Source: Pedobacter sp. PACM 27299 (GTDB taxonomy: Bacteria; Bacteroidota; Bacteroidia; Sphingobacteriales; Sphingobacteriaceae). From it: a DNA stretch of 64,000 nucleotides. Within the stretch, counting starts at the first letter, position 1. Each line of letters opens with the position of its first letter. A model generated the notes under the pieces. That model was not told the origin of the DNA. It saw only the letters and a list, made by a program, of their open reading frames with translations, and made no database searches. The stretch is taken from NCBI RefSeq assembly GCF_001412655.1, contig NZ_CP012996.1, positions 1,798,001-1,862,000 on the forward strand, written 5' to 3'. This document shows, in pieces, positions 58,793-64,000 of the stretch. The translations under genes and the position numbers were made by a program.

Positions 58793-59476
58793 ATGAATCT
58801 GTTATTAGTTGAGGATGATCTTCGTGTTTCTGAGCTTGTCAAAAGAGGTTTGGAAGAGCATGGGTATCAGGTAACGCTGGCTTATGATGGCCTGATGGGC
58901 AAAAAATTAATGATTGCCAATCATTACGACCTGATCATTACTGATATTGTGCTTCCACAGCTAAATGGTATAGAGCTTTGCAGGGAAATTCGGCTGGTAT
59001 GGTCAGAACTCCCTATCATCATGTTAACGGCCCTGGGAACTACAGAGGATAAACTGGATGGATTTGATGCCGGTGCAAATGACTACCTGGTGAAGCCTTT
59101 TGATTTTCGGGAACTTCATGCCCGTATTAAAGTACTGCTGAGCCGCAATGTTGGCGTTTTGCAGGCCCCAATAATCAAATTACTAAAATATGCAGATCTG
59201 GAAATGAACCTGCAAACGAATGTCGTGTGCCGGATGGGAGAGGAAATTAACCTGACACCTAAAGAGTTCAAGCTTTTGGAATATATGCTGCGCAATAAAG
59301 AAAGAATTCTGACCCGTACAGAGATCGCCGAAAAGGTTTGGGATACCCATTTTGATACCGGAACCAATTTTATTGATGTCTATATGAACTACCTGAGGAA
59401 AAAAATTGATAAGAACTTTGAAAATAAACTGATTCATACCAAAACCGGAATGGGCTTTATTTTTAAAGAAATTTAA
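58793..59476 (+). CDS. OmpR/PhoB-family response regulator
   Basis: A 227-residue regulator with a receiver (E7, D8, D9; phosphoacceptor D51 in LIITDIVLP; LVKPFDF carrying the switch lysine) and a C-terminal winged-helix OmpR/PhoB DNA-binding domain (about 130-227; ELNLTPKEF-like INLTPKEFKLL and FIDVYMNYLRKKID). It is co-directional with the HAMP kinase gene 38 bases downstream. These regulators bind direct repeats about 11 bases apart; such repeats lie at 60967-61010 in front of mgtC. Confidence 0.94.
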   Translation: MNLLLVEDDLRVSELVKRGLEEHGYQVTLAYDGLMGKKLMIANHYDLIITDIVLPQLNGIELCREIRLVWSELPIIMLTALGTTEDKLDGFDAGANDYLVKPFDFRELHARIKVLLSRNVGVLQAPIIKLLKYADLEMNLQTNVVCRMGEEINLTPKEFKLLEYMLRNKERILTRTEIAEKVWDTHFDTGTNFIDVYMNYLRKKIDKNFENKLIHTKTGMGFIFKEI

Positions 59477-59514: not shown

Positions 59515-60882
59515 GTGAAAATCCGCTATAAACTGACACTTCTTTTTACATTGCTTTTTACACTGCTCATCTGTGCATTTGCTTTTTTTACCTATTATTC
59601 TTCGGCAGAAAATAGAGAAGATGAGTATTACAAACGATTAAAACAGCTAGCGATTACCAAAAGTAACCTGTTATTAGATGCTAAAGTAGCACCAGATGTT
59701 TTACAGCTGATCTATAAAAATGCGCCAAATAACCTGTTTCAGGAGGAAGTAGCAGTTTATGATACTTCTTTTCACCTATTGTACCATGATGCGGTAAATA
59801 TTGACAAAATCAAGGAAACCAAAAGCATGATCGCCGAGATCGTGGCTAAAGGAGAGATTCAATTTAACCAGGGACAATTACAGGCGGTTGGCTTTCTTTA
59901 TCCTTATAAAGGAAGAAATTATGTGGTGACTGCCGCCGCAAAGGACGAATATGGCCTTGCAAAGTTGCGTCAGCTGCGGTTTATACTGCTGATTTCTGTG
60001 TTGGGCAGCGTGGTGCTGACTGTTTTTGCAGGGTATCTTTTTGCCAGGCATGCTTTAAAACATGTGGCAGAAATGGTAGATGAAATCGAAGAGATGACCG
60101 CAAATAACCTCGATCAGCGTTTAAAAGTGGAAAATGCTAAGGACGAGATTGGTGAACTGGCGATCACCTTTAACCGGATGCTGGATCGTATTGAGCATTC
60201 TTTTGATGCACAAAAAGAGTTTGTTTCTCATATTTCTCATGAATTAAGAACACCTCTGGCCACTGTAATTGCTGAATTGGAGATCTCTCAAAATAAAGAG
60301 AGAACACCTTTGGAATACCAAAACGCGATAGGGCTGGCTTTAAAAGATGCGAGGAAGCTGGCCCGGCTGTCGACCAGTTTATTAGATCTGGCCAATGCCA
60401 ATTACGACCAAACGGAGATTAGCTTCAAAGAACTTCGCCTCGATGAAGTGTTATTAGATGCTCGGATAGAGGTATTGCAGCACCAGCCAGAATATAAAGT
60501 AAACCTCATTTTTGATCAGGAAGCAGAAGATGACGATTTTATTTCTATCTATGGAAATGAGCATTTATTGAAAATCGCTTTCCTCAATTTGATGGAGAAC
60601 AACTGTAAGTTCTCTGAAGATAAACAATCCAATGTTGCAATTTCCTATTATCAGGACAAAACGATGCTCCGTTTTTCTGATCAGGGTATTGGCATCTCGG
60701 AACAAGACCGTCTGCATTTATTCGACCCGTTTTATCGAGGGGATAACCAGTATTACGCAGAGGGAAATGGCATCGGCCTGGCGCTCACAAAAAAGATCAT
60801 CACATTGCATAATGGTGAGATTTCTGTTATTTCTGAAAAAGGAGAAGGAACCACTTTTATCGTTACACTGACTCATGTTTAA
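59515..60882 (+). CDS. HAMP-domain sensor histidine kinase
   Basis: A 455-residue two-helix kinase. TM1 spans about 7-27, a small periplasmic domain of about 130 residues follows, TM2 lies around 157-178, then HAMP (about 180-232; DEIEEMTANNLDQRL), HisKA with H242 in ISHELRTPLATVI, and the ATPase domain (NLMENNCKFSE, DQGIGIS, NGIGLALTKKI). The start is a GTG at 59515-59517. It is the natural partner of the OmpR-type regulator just upstream. In view of the mgtC-mgtA genes next door, a magnesium- or envelope-sensing PhoQ-like role is possible but the periplasmic domain is small and not clearly PhoQ-like. Confidence 0.92.
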   Translation: MKIRYKLTLLFTLLFTLLICAFAFFTYYSSAENREDEYYKRLKQLAITKSNLLLDAKVAPDVLQLIYKNAPNNLFQEEVAVYDTSFHLLYHDAVNIDKIKETKSMIAEIVAKGEIQFNQGQLQAVGFLYPYKGRNYVVTAAAKDEYGLAKLRQLRFILLISVLGSVVLTVFAGYLFARHALKHVAEMVDEIEEMTANNLDQRLKVENAKDEIGELAITFNRMLDRIEHSFDAQKEFVSHISHELRTPLATVIAELEISQNKERTPLEYQNAIGLALKDARKLARLSTSLLDLANANYDQTEISFKELRLDEVLLDARIEVLQHQPEYKVNLIFDQEAEDDDFISIYGNEHLLKIAFLNLMENNCKFSEDKQSNVAISYYQDKTMLRFSDQGIGISEQDRLHLFDPFYRGDNQYYAEGNGIGLALTKKIITLHNGEISVISEKGEGTTFIVTLTHV

Positions 60883-60966: not shown

Positions 60967-61010
60967 TTTCTAATCACTTTCTAATGATTTTCTAATCATG
61001 CCCTAACGGC
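60967..61010 (+). promoter_or_regulatory. Four 11-bp direct repeats upstream of mgtC, candidate OmpR-family binding array
   Basis: TTTCTAAT begins at 60967, 60978 and 60989, exactly 11 bases apart, and GCCCTAAC follows at 61000 as a weaker fourth unit. OmpR/PhoB/PhoP-type regulators bind tandem half-sites with one-turn (about 11 bases) period. The array ends 19 bases before the -7 element TACTTTTG (61030-61037), overlapping the -33 position, as expected for an activator. GCCCTT/AAGGGC (61009-61023) forms a small dyad after it. Confidence 0.6.
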
Positions 61011-61029: not shown

Positions 61030-61037
61030 TACTTTTG
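61030..61037 (+). promoter_or_regulatory. -7 promoter element of the mgtC-mgtA operon
   Basis: TACTTTTG matches TAnnTTTG. The inferred transcription start lies near 61043-61044. No good TTTG stands at -33; that position is occupied by the last CTAAC repeat, which fits a promoter dependent on an activator. Confidence 0.55.
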
Positions 61038-61059
61038 TGTCATCAAAAAAACAAAACGT

Positions 61060-61116
61060 ATGGACAAGCCTCCGTGTTATAAGCCATTAATTATTTACCC
61101 TCCCTATTCAGTGTAG
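61060..61116 (+). CDS. Putative proline-rich leader peptide of the mgtC-mgtA operon
   Basis: An 18-codon reading frame, MDKPPCYKPLIIYPPYSV then TAG, starts 16 or so bases after the inferred transcription start, behind an A-rich stretch that resembles Bacteroidota initiation regions. Five of 18 residues are proline, including two Pro-Pro pairs (codons 4-5 and 14-15), and there is no other gene here. In enterobacteria, short proline-rich leader peptides (MgtL, MgtP) couple magnesium level to expression of mgtA and mgtC; the analogy is one of layout and is not homology in sequence. Translation is not proven, and an ORF this short can arise by chance. Confidence 0.4.
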   Translation: MDKPPCYKPLIIYPPYSV

Positions 61117-61122
61117 TATTTC

Positions 61123-61151
61123 CGATACTTTCCTGAAAGGGAATGATATCG
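61123..61151 (+). promoter_or_regulatory. Hairpin between the leader ORF and mgtC
   Basis: CGATA (61123-61127) pairs with TATCG (61147-61151) and TTTCCT (61129-61134) with AGGGAA (61138-61143; one G-T pair) across a GAA loop, 11 pairs with a small internal loop. It begins 6 bases after the leader stop and ends 7 bases before the mgtC ATG, so it could mask initiation. AGGGA (61138-61142) can also pair with TCCCT (61101-61105), which overlaps the leader's last Pro-Pro codons, giving an alternative fold that a ribosome on those codons would prevent. Confidence 0.4.
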
Positions 61152-61158
61152 AAAAGCA

Positions 61159-61869
61159 ATGTTAAGTACACTAGACTTCAGCAGCCGTTTATTATTAGCC
61201 CTCAGTTTGGGCGCTGCGATTGGCATAGAACGCCAATGGCATCAACGTATCGCAGGATTACGCACCAATACCCTGGTCTCTTTGGGTGCCGCAATATTCA
61301 TTACCCTGGCGGTAAAAATCGGGGGCGATGCCAGTGGCAGGGTCGCTTCTTATATCGTGAGTGGTATTGGTTTTCTCGGTGCCGGAGTGATCATGAAGGA
61401 TGGAATGAATGTAAGGGGACTCAACACTGCAGCCACACTCTGGTGTTCTGCAGCGATTGGCGCACTCTCTGGAATGGGCTTTTACCCTGAAGCAGCAATT
61501 GCTACAAGTTTCATCGTACTCGCACACCTTATTTTACGCCCTATAGGTCTTAAACTAGGCAAAAACTCATTTCATCCCAAAAGTGAAACTGCTCAAACTG
61601 AGTATTTGATTTCCATCAAATGCAAAGAGCGGGTAGAAAATCACATCCGTGTTTTACTGCTCCAGCACCTTGGGAATCATGAAAAGCTCATGCTCAGGGC
61701 ACTGACCAGCAGCGATAACGGTGATCCTGCGAATGCAATCATTACTGCGGAGTTAGTTGCTGTAGGAAATCAGGATGAATTAATGGAAAAAATGGTGAGC
61801 AGGCTGACGATTGAAGCAGAAGTAATGCGGGTAAGCTGGGAATTAACAGGACAACAATCAGAGTTATGA
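61159..61869 (+). CDS. mgtC: MgtC/SapB family membrane protein
   Basis: A 236-residue protein. The N-terminal MgtC/SapB domain (about 8-135) has four or five helices and includes GAAIGIERQWHQRIAGLRTN and GIGFLGAGVIMKDG, the most conserved segments. A C-terminal ACT-like cytosolic domain (about 145-230) follows. In Salmonella MgtC supports growth at low magnesium and modulates the F1Fo ATP synthase. Here its stop overlaps the start of the magnesium ATPase gene as ATGA, so the two are translated together, like the mgtCB operon. The start ATG at 61159 sits directly after the leader hairpin. Confidence 0.93.
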   Translation: MLSTLDFSSRLLLALSLGAAIGIERQWHQRIAGLRTNTLVSLGAAIFITLAVKIGGDASGRVASYIVSGIGFLGAGVIMKDGMNVRGLNTAATLWCSAAIGALSGMGFYPEAAIATSFIVLAHLILRPIGLKLGKNSFHPKSETAQTEYLISIKCKERVENHIRVLLLQHLGNHEKLMLRALTSSDNGDPANAIITAELVAVGNQDELMEKMVSRLTIEAEVMRVSWELTGQQSEL

Positions 61870-64000
61870 AAAGACTAAAAATGAAACATCAAAAAACAGC
61901 TGCTGGTTTTGAGGAGGCAGGAGCAACAAAGTTGAAAAATGTGGCGAGAATAGCAGCAGATTTCTTCTATCCCATGCTCAATAGCGACAAGGAAGGTTTG
62001 ACAGCAGCTGCTGTAGCAGAAAAGAGAAAGTTGTTTGGCTGGAATGAAATTGAGCATGAGCGAGCTTTACCTTGGTACGTTCAGCTATTTCAAGCCTTTT
62101 TAAACCCTTTTATTGCCGTGTTGTTAATATTGGCTATTGTCTCGTTTATTGTCGATGTGGGACTCGCTGAGGAGGCTGAGCGGGATTATAAAACGGTTAT
62201 TGTAGTTGGGCTGATGGTAGTGCTGAGTTCTCTGCTTCGTTTTTGGCAGGAATTCGGCAGTAACCGGGCGGCGGAAGCACTAAAAAGTATGGTGAAAACC
62301 ACTGCTACCGTTTTGCGTAAAGAAAATGGAAAAGAAGAAGTTGAGCTGAAAGCTTTAGTACCTGGTGACCTGGTGTTTTTGAGTGCCGGTGATATGGTGC
62401 CTGCAGATCTACGCCTCATCCAGTCTAAAGATCTTTTTGTGAGTCAGGCTATGCTGACAGGTGAATCTCATCCATTGGAAAAAAGTGCCGAAGTGGTTTC
62501 CAATGCAGATCATAAATCACCATTGGAACTGGATAACATCTGTTTCATGGGGACTAATGTATTGAGCGGCACAGCTACTGCAGTGGTGGTCAATACGGGG
62601 AATCTGACTTATTTCGGTGCTGTAGGTACTGCCATCAGCGGAAAACGTTCAGAAACCAGTTTTGATAAAGGGGTGAATAAGGTGAGCTGGTTACTGATCC
62701 GATTTATGCTGGTGATGGTTCCTTTGACTTTTGTGATCAATGGTTTAACTAAAGGAGATTGGTTTGAAGCGTTGCTTTTCGGCATTGCGATGGCAGTGGG
62801 CTTAACACCAGAGATGCTGCCCATGATTGTGACTGCCAACCTGGCCAAGGGGGCGAAGAATATGAGTCAGCATAAAGTGATTGTGAAAAGATTAAATGCC
62901 ATCCAGAATATTGGGGCCATGGATATTCTTTGTACCGATAAAACCGGGACACTCACCATGGATAAGATCATTTTAGAGCGGCATTTGAATGTTTATGGAG
63001 AAGACGATGATGAAGTGCTGAAATGGGCTTATTTAAATAGTTTTCATCAAACTGGGCTAAAAAACCTCCTTGATCTGGCAGTGCTGGAACATTTGGAACT
63101 TCATGATTACCTGAATGTTGCGGAAGGTTATCATAAAGTAGATGAGATTCCTTTTGATTTTCAGCGACGAAGAATGAGTGTGATTTTGGAGCAGCAGCAT
63201 GGAAAACAGCTGCTGATCTGTAAAGGCGCAGTGGAAGAAATGCTCGACCTATGTTCTCATGCGTTTGAGCCTGGTGAAAATCACCAGTTGCACCTGGAAA
63301 AGGATGCCGTGGTAGTGATGGATGAGTGCATGCGCAATACCGTGCTGCTAACTTCCAGAAAGCTTAATGAAGATGGGCTGAGGGTATTATTGGTGGCTAT
63401 AAAGGAATATGACCCGCGTCCTTCAAACTATGGGGTCAAGGAGGAGGATAAAATGATTTTAACTGGATTCATTGGCTTTTTAGATCCCGCTAAACCTTCT
63501 GCAAGGCCTGCAATTGAAGGGCTGCAGGAACTGGGGATTACAGTTAAAGTACTGACTGGTGATAATGATGTGGTGACCAGAAAGATCTGTAAAGAAGTGG
63601 GAATTCCCTTTCAGCAGGTTTTATTGGGACATGAACTGGACCAGATGGGGGAGGAGGAGCTTGCTGCTAAGCTTCAGGATACCAGTATTTTTGCAAAATT
63701 AAGCCCTGTTCAAAAGTCCAGGATTGTCAGGTTGTTACAATCGAAAGGGCATACTGTAGGTTTTATGGGAGATGGGATCAATGATGCGGCAGCATTAAGA
63801 GTTGCTGACGTAGGCATTTCTGTAGACACTGCGGTAGACATCGCAAAAGAAAGCGCCGACATTATCCTGCTGGAAAAAGACCTGATGGTACTTCGCAAAG
63901 GGGTGATCTATGGACGGCGAACTTTTGGGAACATTATTAAATACATCAAAATGACGGCCAGCAGTAATTTTGGCAATATGTTCAGTATGTTAGGTGCAAG
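61866..64000 (+). CDS. mgtA: Magnesium-translocating P-type ATPase (MgtA/MgtB), 3' end outside the window
   Basis: The first 711 codons of a P3B-type ATPase that imports magnesium are present and the frame stays open to the right edge. Visible parts are the N-terminal cytosolic segment with NEIEHERALPWYVQLFQAF, the actuator motif LTGESHPLEK, the family-specific PEMLPMIV segment in the membrane, the phosphorylation motif DKTGTLT with D358, the nucleotide-binding KGAVEEML and the hinge MGDGINDAAAL. These are all intact. It overlaps the mgtC stop by four bases. P3B pumps are induced at low magnesium, which is consistent with the regulatory region upstream of mgtC. Confidence 0.94.
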   Translation, partial: MKRLKMKHQKTAAGFEEAGATKLKNVARIAADFFYPMLNSDKEGLTAAAVAEKRKLFGWNEIEHERALPWYVQLFQAFLNPFIAVLLILAIVSFIVDVGLAEEAERDYKTVIVVGLMVVLSSLLRFWQEFGSNRAAEALKSMVKTTATVLRKENGKEEVELKALVPGDLVFLSAGDMVPADLRLIQSKDLFVSQAMLTGESHPLEKSAEVVSNADHKSPLELDNICFMGTNVLSGTATAVVVNTGNLTYFGAVGTAISGKRSETSFDKGVNKVSWLLIRFMLVMVPLTFVINGLTKGDWFEALLFGIAMAVGLTPEMLPMIVTANLAKGAKNMSQHKVIVKRLNAIQNIGAMDILCTDKTGTLTMDKIILERHLNVYGEDDDEVLKWAYLNSFHQTGLKNLLDLAVLEHLELHDYLNVAEGYHKVDEIPFDFQRRRMSVILEQQHGKQLLICKGAVEEMLDLCSHAFEPGENHQLHLEKDAVVVMDECMRNTVLLTSRKLNEDGLRVLLVAIKEYDPRPSNYGVKEEDKMILTGFIGFLDPAKPSARPAIEGLQELGITVKVLTGDNDVVTRKICKEVGIPFQQVLLGHELDQMGEEELAAKLQDTSIFAKLSPVQKSRIVRLLQSKGHTVGFMGDGINDAAALRVADVGISVDTAVDIAKESADIILLEKDLMVLRKGVIYGRRTFGNIIKYIKMTASSNFGNMFSMLGA

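Follow-up and report, generated by a model that had tools for sequence, protein, structure and literature searches.

Conserved short leader ORFs and competing RNA folds suggest translational attenuation of Mg2+ genes in Bacteroidia

Given that mgtC and mgtA of Pedobacter sp. PACM 27299 are preceded by a short ORF and a hairpin, we asked whether this region could control the two genes through translation of a leader peptide. The stretch analyzed (64,000 nt, hereafter the window) comes from a genome of 6.15 Mb in a single contig, and the features run in the order regulator, kinase, TTTCTAAT repeats, TACTTTTG, leader ORF, hairpin, mgtC and mgtA, all on the forward (+) strand. The leader ORF, MDKPPCYKPLIIYPPYSV (61060..61116), has 18 codons, from an ATG at 61060 to a TAG at 61114-61116. 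The mgtC product (61159..61869) carries MgtC and MgtC_SapB_C domains (Pfam). The start of mgtA (61866..63998, continuing past the window end) overlaps the mgtC stop, and its product is a P-type Mg2+ ATPase (NCBIfam TIGR01524, 942.5 bits against a cut-off of 610.75) whose four top PDB sequence matches are all Mg-transporting ATPases. An initial annotation had described a TAnnTTTG box, the 18-codon ORF and an 11-pair hairpin that stops 7 nt short of the mgtC start codon, and we recovered all three at the same positions. Based on the sequence comparisons and predicted folds presented below, we consider it fairly probable that the region is a translational attenuator governed by leader-peptide translation, and one of a family of leaders of Mg2+ genes in Bacteroidia.

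The promoter-type box TACTTTTG (61030..61037), located by pattern, matches the consensus of the Bacteroidota -7 promoter element, TAnnTTTG; no -33 element was found by eye at the window locus. Farther upstream, three TTTCTAAT repeats at 11-bp spacing (60967-60974, 60978-60985 and 60989-60996) are followed by a degenerate fourth, GCCCTAAC (61000-61007), and this block (60967..61007) is a candidate site at which an OmpR-type response regulator may bind. The gene for a regulator of this type (58793..59476; Response_reg and Trans_reg_C, Pfam), a candidate transcriptional activator of the operon, is adjoined by a sensor histidine kinase gene (59515..60882; HAMP, HisKA and HATPase_c, Pfam); the top NCBIfam model for the regulator is copR/silR-like, under the cut-off (213.1 vs 279.2 bits). 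Together, the repeats and these adjacent genes look like the transcriptional control of the operon. Paired boxes at 11-bp spacing were detected 5´ of the leader in 22 of the 36 leader loci scanned, and none in the scanned loci of the f21 and f45 lineages. By eye, box pairs at this spacing were also noted upstream of two leaderless mgtC loci (L062 and L064).

Protein searches for mgtC homologues covered 145 genus genomes, 251 of the family and 395 of the class, as well as 294 genomes of the family of G710 (with one record named Chitinophagaceae) and genomes of named species. The genus gave 29 matches of at least 58% identity (L002-L030); the other listed matches, at no more than 50%, are paralogues and were kept outside the leader count. 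Since L030 begins within mgtC, 28 Pedobacter loci were assessed, and the conserved leader ORF that had been proposed to precede mgtC-mgtA is present at 26 of them, with no leader visible at L013 and L029. These leaders comprise 11 of the type MDKPPC (group 1, L002-L012), in which MDKPPC is invariant in 11/11, seven MDAGP or MDSGP leaders (group 2, L022-L028) and eight MDSGP leaders (group 3, L014-L021). Among further Sphingobacteriaceae mgtC loci, leaders were found at L055-L058 and L060 and none at 6 of the 11 (L059, L061-L065); seven lower-scoring family paralogues (L066-L072) are leaderless. The class sample added L075 (MDPEPRRKNRVSPA), L077 (MASDCSSLTHRLHL) and L074, which is the same as L037 (MTGDSRSIYYHII); none was seen at L079-L083, and L078 begins within the gene. 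In the family of G710, leaders are present at L087 (MDADPYSLNGSHPS), L088 (MDTHPPSDSSFLNYSR) and L089 (MDSQPPSCLITL), L085 and L086 are leaderless and L084 is ambiguous, and the named genomes contributed Flavobacterium L036 (MDLPPPRKQKL), L038 (MDTETAAYLQLHFIS), L039 (MTSDSHSGIQHIN) and L041 (MKSDSHSRNVHII). We also noted, at L076, a 7-codon ORF, MSISKPP-stop, which ends ~15 nt before mgtC and whose Pro-Pro-stop could stall termination.

Across the 41 mgtC-derived leaders, which are kin sequences and non-independent, with the odd ones chosen by eye, Asp2 is found in 37, Asp4 in the remaining four and Pro5 in 36. Together with the motif scans described below, they define an N-terminal motif, M-D-x-[G/P]-P, which is MDKPP in the window (61060..61074) and which places an acidic residue and/or Pro among the first five residues, as in leaders of the mgtL and mgtQ type. 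MDxGP, with one motif Pro after Gly, is the commonest form in the wider family; MDKPP, MDTHPP, MDSQPP and MDLPPP leaders exist as well, and the proline-free leaders are four of the MxSDxS type and L038 (MDTET). The motif of L075, MDPEP, is a near mirror of MgtL MEPDP and is close to the EPDP destabilizing motif of that peptide.

Within group 1, two codons vary among codons 2-6, both synonymously, and each of the 11 codons examined beyond codon 6 is variable at the amino-acid level; codons 2-6 contain two variable codons with amino-acid change in group 2 and one in group 3. The synonymous-type substitution that had been anticipated for the leader was seen in group 1, at two codons, and the changes in codons 2-6 of groups 2 and 3 are not all silent. 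Gaps internal to the group-3 leaders are multiples of three in seven of eight rows (0, 3, 3, 15, 15, 27 and 27 bases), a gap of 4 bases in L019 being the sole exception. A frame broken in relatives had been named as evidence against the proposal; the frame is intact in 10 of the 11 group-1 loci and broken in one, L006, which is frameshifted after codon 12. Judged by these patterns, the leader start behaves as coding sequence, the N-terminus being kept while the rest varies; position before a Mg2+ transporter gene and conservation both hold for this short ORF, and its translation is predicted. Conservation of Pro-Pro codons, likewise anticipated, applies to the first pair, which is kept along with Asp2 among close relatives, and not to the second: YPPYS is present in 3/11 group-1 loci and lost in eight, one of them by the frameshift, with sequences such as HLPSS, HLLLS, YPSLS and HPSFW found elsewhere. 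The region of the lost YPPYS is retained as pairing sequence instead.

We also searched for such leaders without reference to mgtC, using the pattern TAnnTTTG, a gap, and ATG-Asp-x-[G/P/A/R]-Pro. This pattern has exactly one match in the 6.15 Mb genome of the window, and a backward-pattern control gave 0. It was found in 107 of 395 Bacteroidia genomes, mostly within genes; 124 distinct sites were classified, 73 of which have an ORF of at most 40 aa, and 25 of those lie outside any ORF of at least 120 aa. Fourteen of the 25 intergenic short ORFs are MDxGP, and 11 of these precede Mg genes: mgtA (L120-L125), mgtE (L108) and MgtE_N-CBS genes (L090, L092-L094); for the MgtE_N-CBS kind, an NRAMP gene lies next in the single locus checked (L253). 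The 11 span three family-level lineages (f45, f29 and f21). The connection to Mg2+ suggested by the initial annotation is supported, and a search by motif alone reached mgtA and mgtE in other lineages. MDxGP behind TAnnTTTG also arises by chance, given that 3 of the 14 sites adjoin non-Mg genes, as do 4 of 13 in the Sphingobacteriaceae scan below. The MDxPP form alone was rejected as a search key for being non-specific, since of six intergenic short ORFs of this form only the one in the window is located before a Mg gene. A further three MDHPP sites, all at mgtE in one genus, were removed by the filter. In these three genomes (L154, L155 and L158), MDHPP starts ~17 nt upstream of the mgtE start and out of frame, and the motif codons differ at third positions only, a possible case of overlapping uORF control.

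For 201 Sphingobacteriaceae, the MDxGP pattern gave 40 sites, of which 38 were classified, the other two being L055 and L057. Eight of the 13 intergenic sites with an ORF of at most 45 aa precede mgtC, mgtA or mgtE, five of them already known through mgtC and three new (two mgtA, one mgtE); the mgtA leaders are L231 and L235 and the mgtE leaders L238 and L256. The ninth of the 13, L232, has MDAGP before an OprB porin gene and an NRAMP gene and is only a candidate, being a 45-codon ORF with no clear hairpins. Whole-family scans detected an mgtA leader in 6/11 genomes of f45, a MgtE_N-CBS leader in 5/36 genomes of f21 (L250 being new) and an mgtE leader in 1/16 genomes of f29. Among 247 genomes sampled across the phylum, the pattern occurred in 12, with none resembling such a leader (one, L264, a 59-aa ORF, fell outside the comparison with Mg proteins). 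The leader has a patchy distribution and, as far as these samples go, is limited to Bacteroidia. Several candidates were discarded: L116 (MDTGP) lies within a transporter gene, and the MDYGP sites at L210, L236, L275 and L276, along with MDHGPW at L209, derive from ATGGACyATGGACC-type repeats. Other features of individual loci include a leader that overlaps the mgtE start out of frame (L108), an MDTGP leader after which the MgtE N/CBS and membrane domains occupy two overlapping frames (L256:2107-3452, minus strand), possibly a split gene, a frameshift or an assembly error, and an MntP-like (PF02659) gene between mgtC and mgtA (L251:7777-8391, minus strand).

Two mutually exclusive pairings with bases in common are predicted for the window. 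Pairing A has its 5´ arm over the last leader codons and the stop (61101..61120; TCCCT 61101-61105, TTCAG 61107-61111 and AGTATT 61115-61120) and its 3´ arm, identified by folding and comparison, at 61124..61142 (GATACT, CTGAA and AGGGA). Its core joins 61101-61105 with 61138-61142, the alternative pairing of AGGGA with TCCCT over the last Pro-Pro codons that the initial annotation had pointed out, and is extended by 61107-61111:61133-61137 and 61115-61120:61124-61129. Hairpin B (61123..61151), obtained upon folding with the leader end masked, has 11 pairs, leaves 7 nt between its end and the mgtC ATG, and can be extended by UUU 61119-61121 with AAA 61152-61154. By fold energy alone the window is unremarkable (z -1.48; 15 of 200 shuffles equally stable), and the question thus becomes a comparative one. 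In groups 1-3, B ends close to, or spans, the next start codon, and A links the last leader codons and stop, or bases just beyond, to the loop and one arm of B. The scheme of two exclusive pairings, one of them predicted to hide the next start, recurs with different sequences across lineages, as would be expected from the original proposal. The 5´ arm of B, as chosen automatically, begins 0-15 nt past the stop in 32/36 loci. B is the stable fold even with a free leader in several group-2 loci, where A could therefore act only during transcription.

Formal pair counting was confined to A, as MAFFT alignments mis-register B in group 1; group-2 and group-3 pairs were inspected and vary little. 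The outer A helix of group 1 has 85.3% standard pairs, compared to 39.4-64.2% with slid partners. The covariation of the stems that had been anticipated was borne out in part: 3 of 10 pairs in group-1 A are changed on both sides, but the covariation score was reached by 27/500 shuffles, the percentage paired by 154/500, and L008 and L011 break the pairing. The group-1 covariation alone is modest. One position is shared by both folds: the partner of column 84 is column 42 in A but column 73 in B. These columns change from T,T,A in L002-L004 to C,C,G in L005, L006 and L009, preserving both pairings, and the B pair is broken in L008 and the A pair in L011. In group 3, GCTA or GTTA at the leader end lies opposite TAGC or TAAC of the B loop (L015, L017); four rows miss one base there, and L018 and L021 are mismatched. 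To assess A only, the 27 nt before B were paired against B in 36 loci. This gave p<0.05 in 15/36 loci and in 10 of 24 lineage representatives, which were picked after viewing the sequences (Fisher 3.8e-8 over the 24), and A beats the stretch 27 nt further upstream in 26/36. Singly, 21/36 miss p<0.05, including L010, L057, L074, L077, L036, L038, L039, L124 and the f21 loci; for L010 and the f21 group, the automated procedure probably selected the wrong B, and these rows were retained. The same pairing test on other stretches gave 16/31 loci below 0.05. A third version of the test (19/36) extended 12 nt beyond the stop, mixing A with B, and was discarded as unusable for A. Collectively, these data indicate that A is preserved beyond chance.

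We also noted a further hairpin within the leader coding region of L014-L016 and L019-L021 (leader bases 24-41), at about mRNA-entry distance from codon 5. It is present in 6/8 group-3 leaders and is absent from L017 and L018, which miss 27 nt. Compensatory changes in its pairs are TA/CG, AT/GC and TA/GC, whereas L015 and L021 contain mismatches.

These features can be combined in a model of how the switch would operate. With enough Mg2+, ribosomes would clear the motif, translate to the stop and cover the 5´ arm of A, so that B would form and mgtC, with mgtA behind it, would be poorly translated. At low Mg2+, a ribosome with a chain of 4 or 5 residues, carrying Asp2 and with Pro5 incoming, would dissociate or stall, by intrinsic ribosome destabilization as on MgtL and MgtQ. 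Such early loss would leave the leader end free, so that A would form, break B and expose the start codon; the net effect would be that low Mg2+ turns the importers on. The motif (Asp2 and Pro5 with a 4-residue chain) fits, by analogy, the published determinants of intrinsic ribosome destabilization. The footprint of a ribosome at codons 4-5 extends ~12-15 nt past the P site. By this geometry such a ribosome would be too far upstream to melt B, and the motif would act only via the number of ribosomes that reach the leader end. The direction of the switch is an inference, as equilibrium folding leaves the sign undecided: comparing the free leader with one masked to the stop, the start region was more open in 14 and less open in 15 of 47 loci, and the attempt to predict the sign from equilibrium accessibility failed. 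Masking to stop+9 opened the start region in 27/47 loci and closed it in 7/47, and a terminating ribosome could thus also open B, the 5´ arm of which is so near the stop.

This last possibility is the basis of the main rival explanation, translational coupling after complete translation of the leader, in which the sign is opposite: a ribosome completing the leader would unwind B and turn the next ORF on, and drop-off at the motif would lower expression. The proximity of B to the stop and the effect of masking to stop+9 are both in line with coupling, and bacteria including Bacteroidetes have been suggested to reinitiate downstream of leader ORFs (parts of PMC4833913). However, the reinitiation peak given in those parts lies at 11-14 bp, compared to 36-106 nt here; coupling leaves A without a role, though A is kept beyond chance; and, if the motif aborts translation at low Mg2+, coupling would switch importers off under Mg2+ scarcity. 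Moreover, in the portions of the mgtL and mgtQ literature on Salmonella and E. coli that we consulted, efficient leader translation reduces expression. We regard coupling as unlikely. An attenuator sensing proline or charged tRNA-Pro through the Pro-Pro codons, as in Salmonella mgtP, is suggested by the five prolines of the window leader and by the Pro-Pro and Pro-Pro-Pro forms listed above. Most leaders, however, have a single motif Pro after Gly and five lack any, group 1 does not retain the second Pro-Pro, and the downstream genes are Mg genes rather than proline genes. Sensing by prolines as such, part of the initial annotation, is not supported either, Asp2 being as constant (37/41) as Pro5 (36/41). 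We consider an attenuator of the mgtP type very improbable.

Could the RNA itself bind Mg2+ as a riboswitch, with the leader ORF a mere passenger? The hairpins are strong, and M-box riboswitches govern Mg genes elsewhere (parts of PMC12810186), but no Rfam family matched at gathering score in 18 leader loci, the window matches are all below gathering scores with none credible, and the known Mg2+ RNAs in Rfam (M-box, mgtA leader) were absent at gathering threshold from the leader loci scanned. The RNA sequences, in addition, diverge between groups while M-D-x-[G/P]-P is retained, and neither A nor B includes the motif codons; a riboswitch seems as improbable as proline sensing. Least likely in our estimation is true nascent-chain arrest at x-[G/P]-P, with Gly or Pro in the P site and Pro in the A site, a state that a factor such as EF-P or an ABC-F protein would relieve and that is distinct from Mg2+-dependent subunit dissociation. 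Both x-G-P and x-P-P are sites of slow translation, and the hairpin within six of the eight group-3 leaders is suitably placed relative to codon 5. At the entry of Pro5, though, the chain has only 4-5 residues, favoring drop-off, and arrest would make the conservation of Asp2 needless.

Attenuation by early ribosome loss, the reading we prefer, has its closest counterpart in Salmonella mgtQ, an 8-aa uORF before mgtB with Asp2/Glu5, where, according to the parts of the report available to us (PMC8092293), drop-off frees a sequestered transporter RBS. The two share an Asp2 close to the start, stems that exclude each other (1:2 and 3:4 vs 2:3 in mgtQ), a sequestered Mg2+ transporter RBS, control at the level of translation and an increase in expression upon drop-off, the last three being proposed for the Bacteroidia leaders. 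As described in the same parts, mgtQ is intergenic between mgtC and mgtB and has Asp2/Glu5 and a strong SD, whereas the Bacteroidia leader is 5´-terminal, has Asp2/Pro5 and other sequences, belongs to another phylum and heads mgtC, mgtA and mgtE alike. In E. coli and Salmonella mgtL, which controls mgtA, an N-terminal EPDP destabilizes ribosomes at low Mg2+ (parts of PMC11282234 and PMC11552253). Shared with mgtL are a short leader with N-terminal acidic and Pro residues, two exclusive folds and control of mgtA; mgtL, in these accounts, works by Rho-dependent transcription termination, while the Bacteroidia fold sits at the start codon. The likeness is one of a short motif only, and we claim no descent. 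The 17-codon leader mgtP before Salmonella mgtCBR senses proline supply with Pro10-Pro11, kept in relatives (parts of PMC3641672). As in the window, this leader contains Pro, precedes mgtC and has its last codons in a stem arm, and its stem D is able to hide both the RBS and the start of mgtC, similar to the position of B near the mgtC start. In contrast to the conserved Pro10-Pro11, it is Pro5 and Asp2 that are kept here and the C-terminal Pro-Pro that is lost; adjoining Pro codons at the stem-arm base, the arrangement of mgtP, are retained in only 3/11 group-1 loci. Transcriptome papers on Bacteroidota suggest leader ORFs in 5´ regions (PMC9723704, PMC7366714), which, in the parts consulted, belong to operons for amino-acid biosynthesis in Flavobacterium or are unvalidated sORFs of Bacteroides, and do not involve Mg genes.

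We found no report of a Mg2+ leader peptide in Bacteroidota in the open-access literature, surveyed in part, in agreement with the initial annotation, which knew of no leader-peptide control of this type in the phylum. A Mg2+ leader peptide with alternative folds is of a known kind; the family, the motif and the phylum are new as far as we could see. To our knowledge, ribosome destabilization as a Mg2+ sensor is known from enterobacterial leaders only. Whether Bacteroidia have, independently of enterobacteria, a ribosomal Mg2+ sensor of five codons (M-D-x-[G/P]-P) before mgtC-mgtA, mgtA, mgtE, and MgtE_N-CBS with NRAMP, each with its own pair of hairpins, is in our view an evenly balanced question. 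If so, a Bacteroidia Mg2+ regulon would have as its sensor the ribosome itself, through its stability when carrying a minimal nascent chain. This would help to account for Mg2+ control in Bacteroidota, and MDxGP ORFs could be used as markers and as a search motif for new Mg genes. A second family, located in a distant phylum, identifiable by five codons and heading Mg2+ genes of three kinds, would show the principle to be general and tunable, and the natural variants SGP, AGP, TGP, EGP, KPP, ADP and PEP would help to map what the ribosome senses.

In several lineages, the ORF that would be gated by the attenuator is a second small ORF overlapping or preceding the transporter start. Such an ORF overlaps or precedes the main gene in group 3, L055, L056, L060, L036, L231, L235 and the f45 loci checked. 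At L014, L017, L021, L055, L056, L060, L036, L231 and L235, we noted it between the attenuator and mgtC or mgtA as an ORF of 53-83 aa (e.g. MFNF..YDYPVGMDTRP..), which in several of these loci overlaps the next start. The second small ORF may encode an unannotated small protein or be a coupling device.
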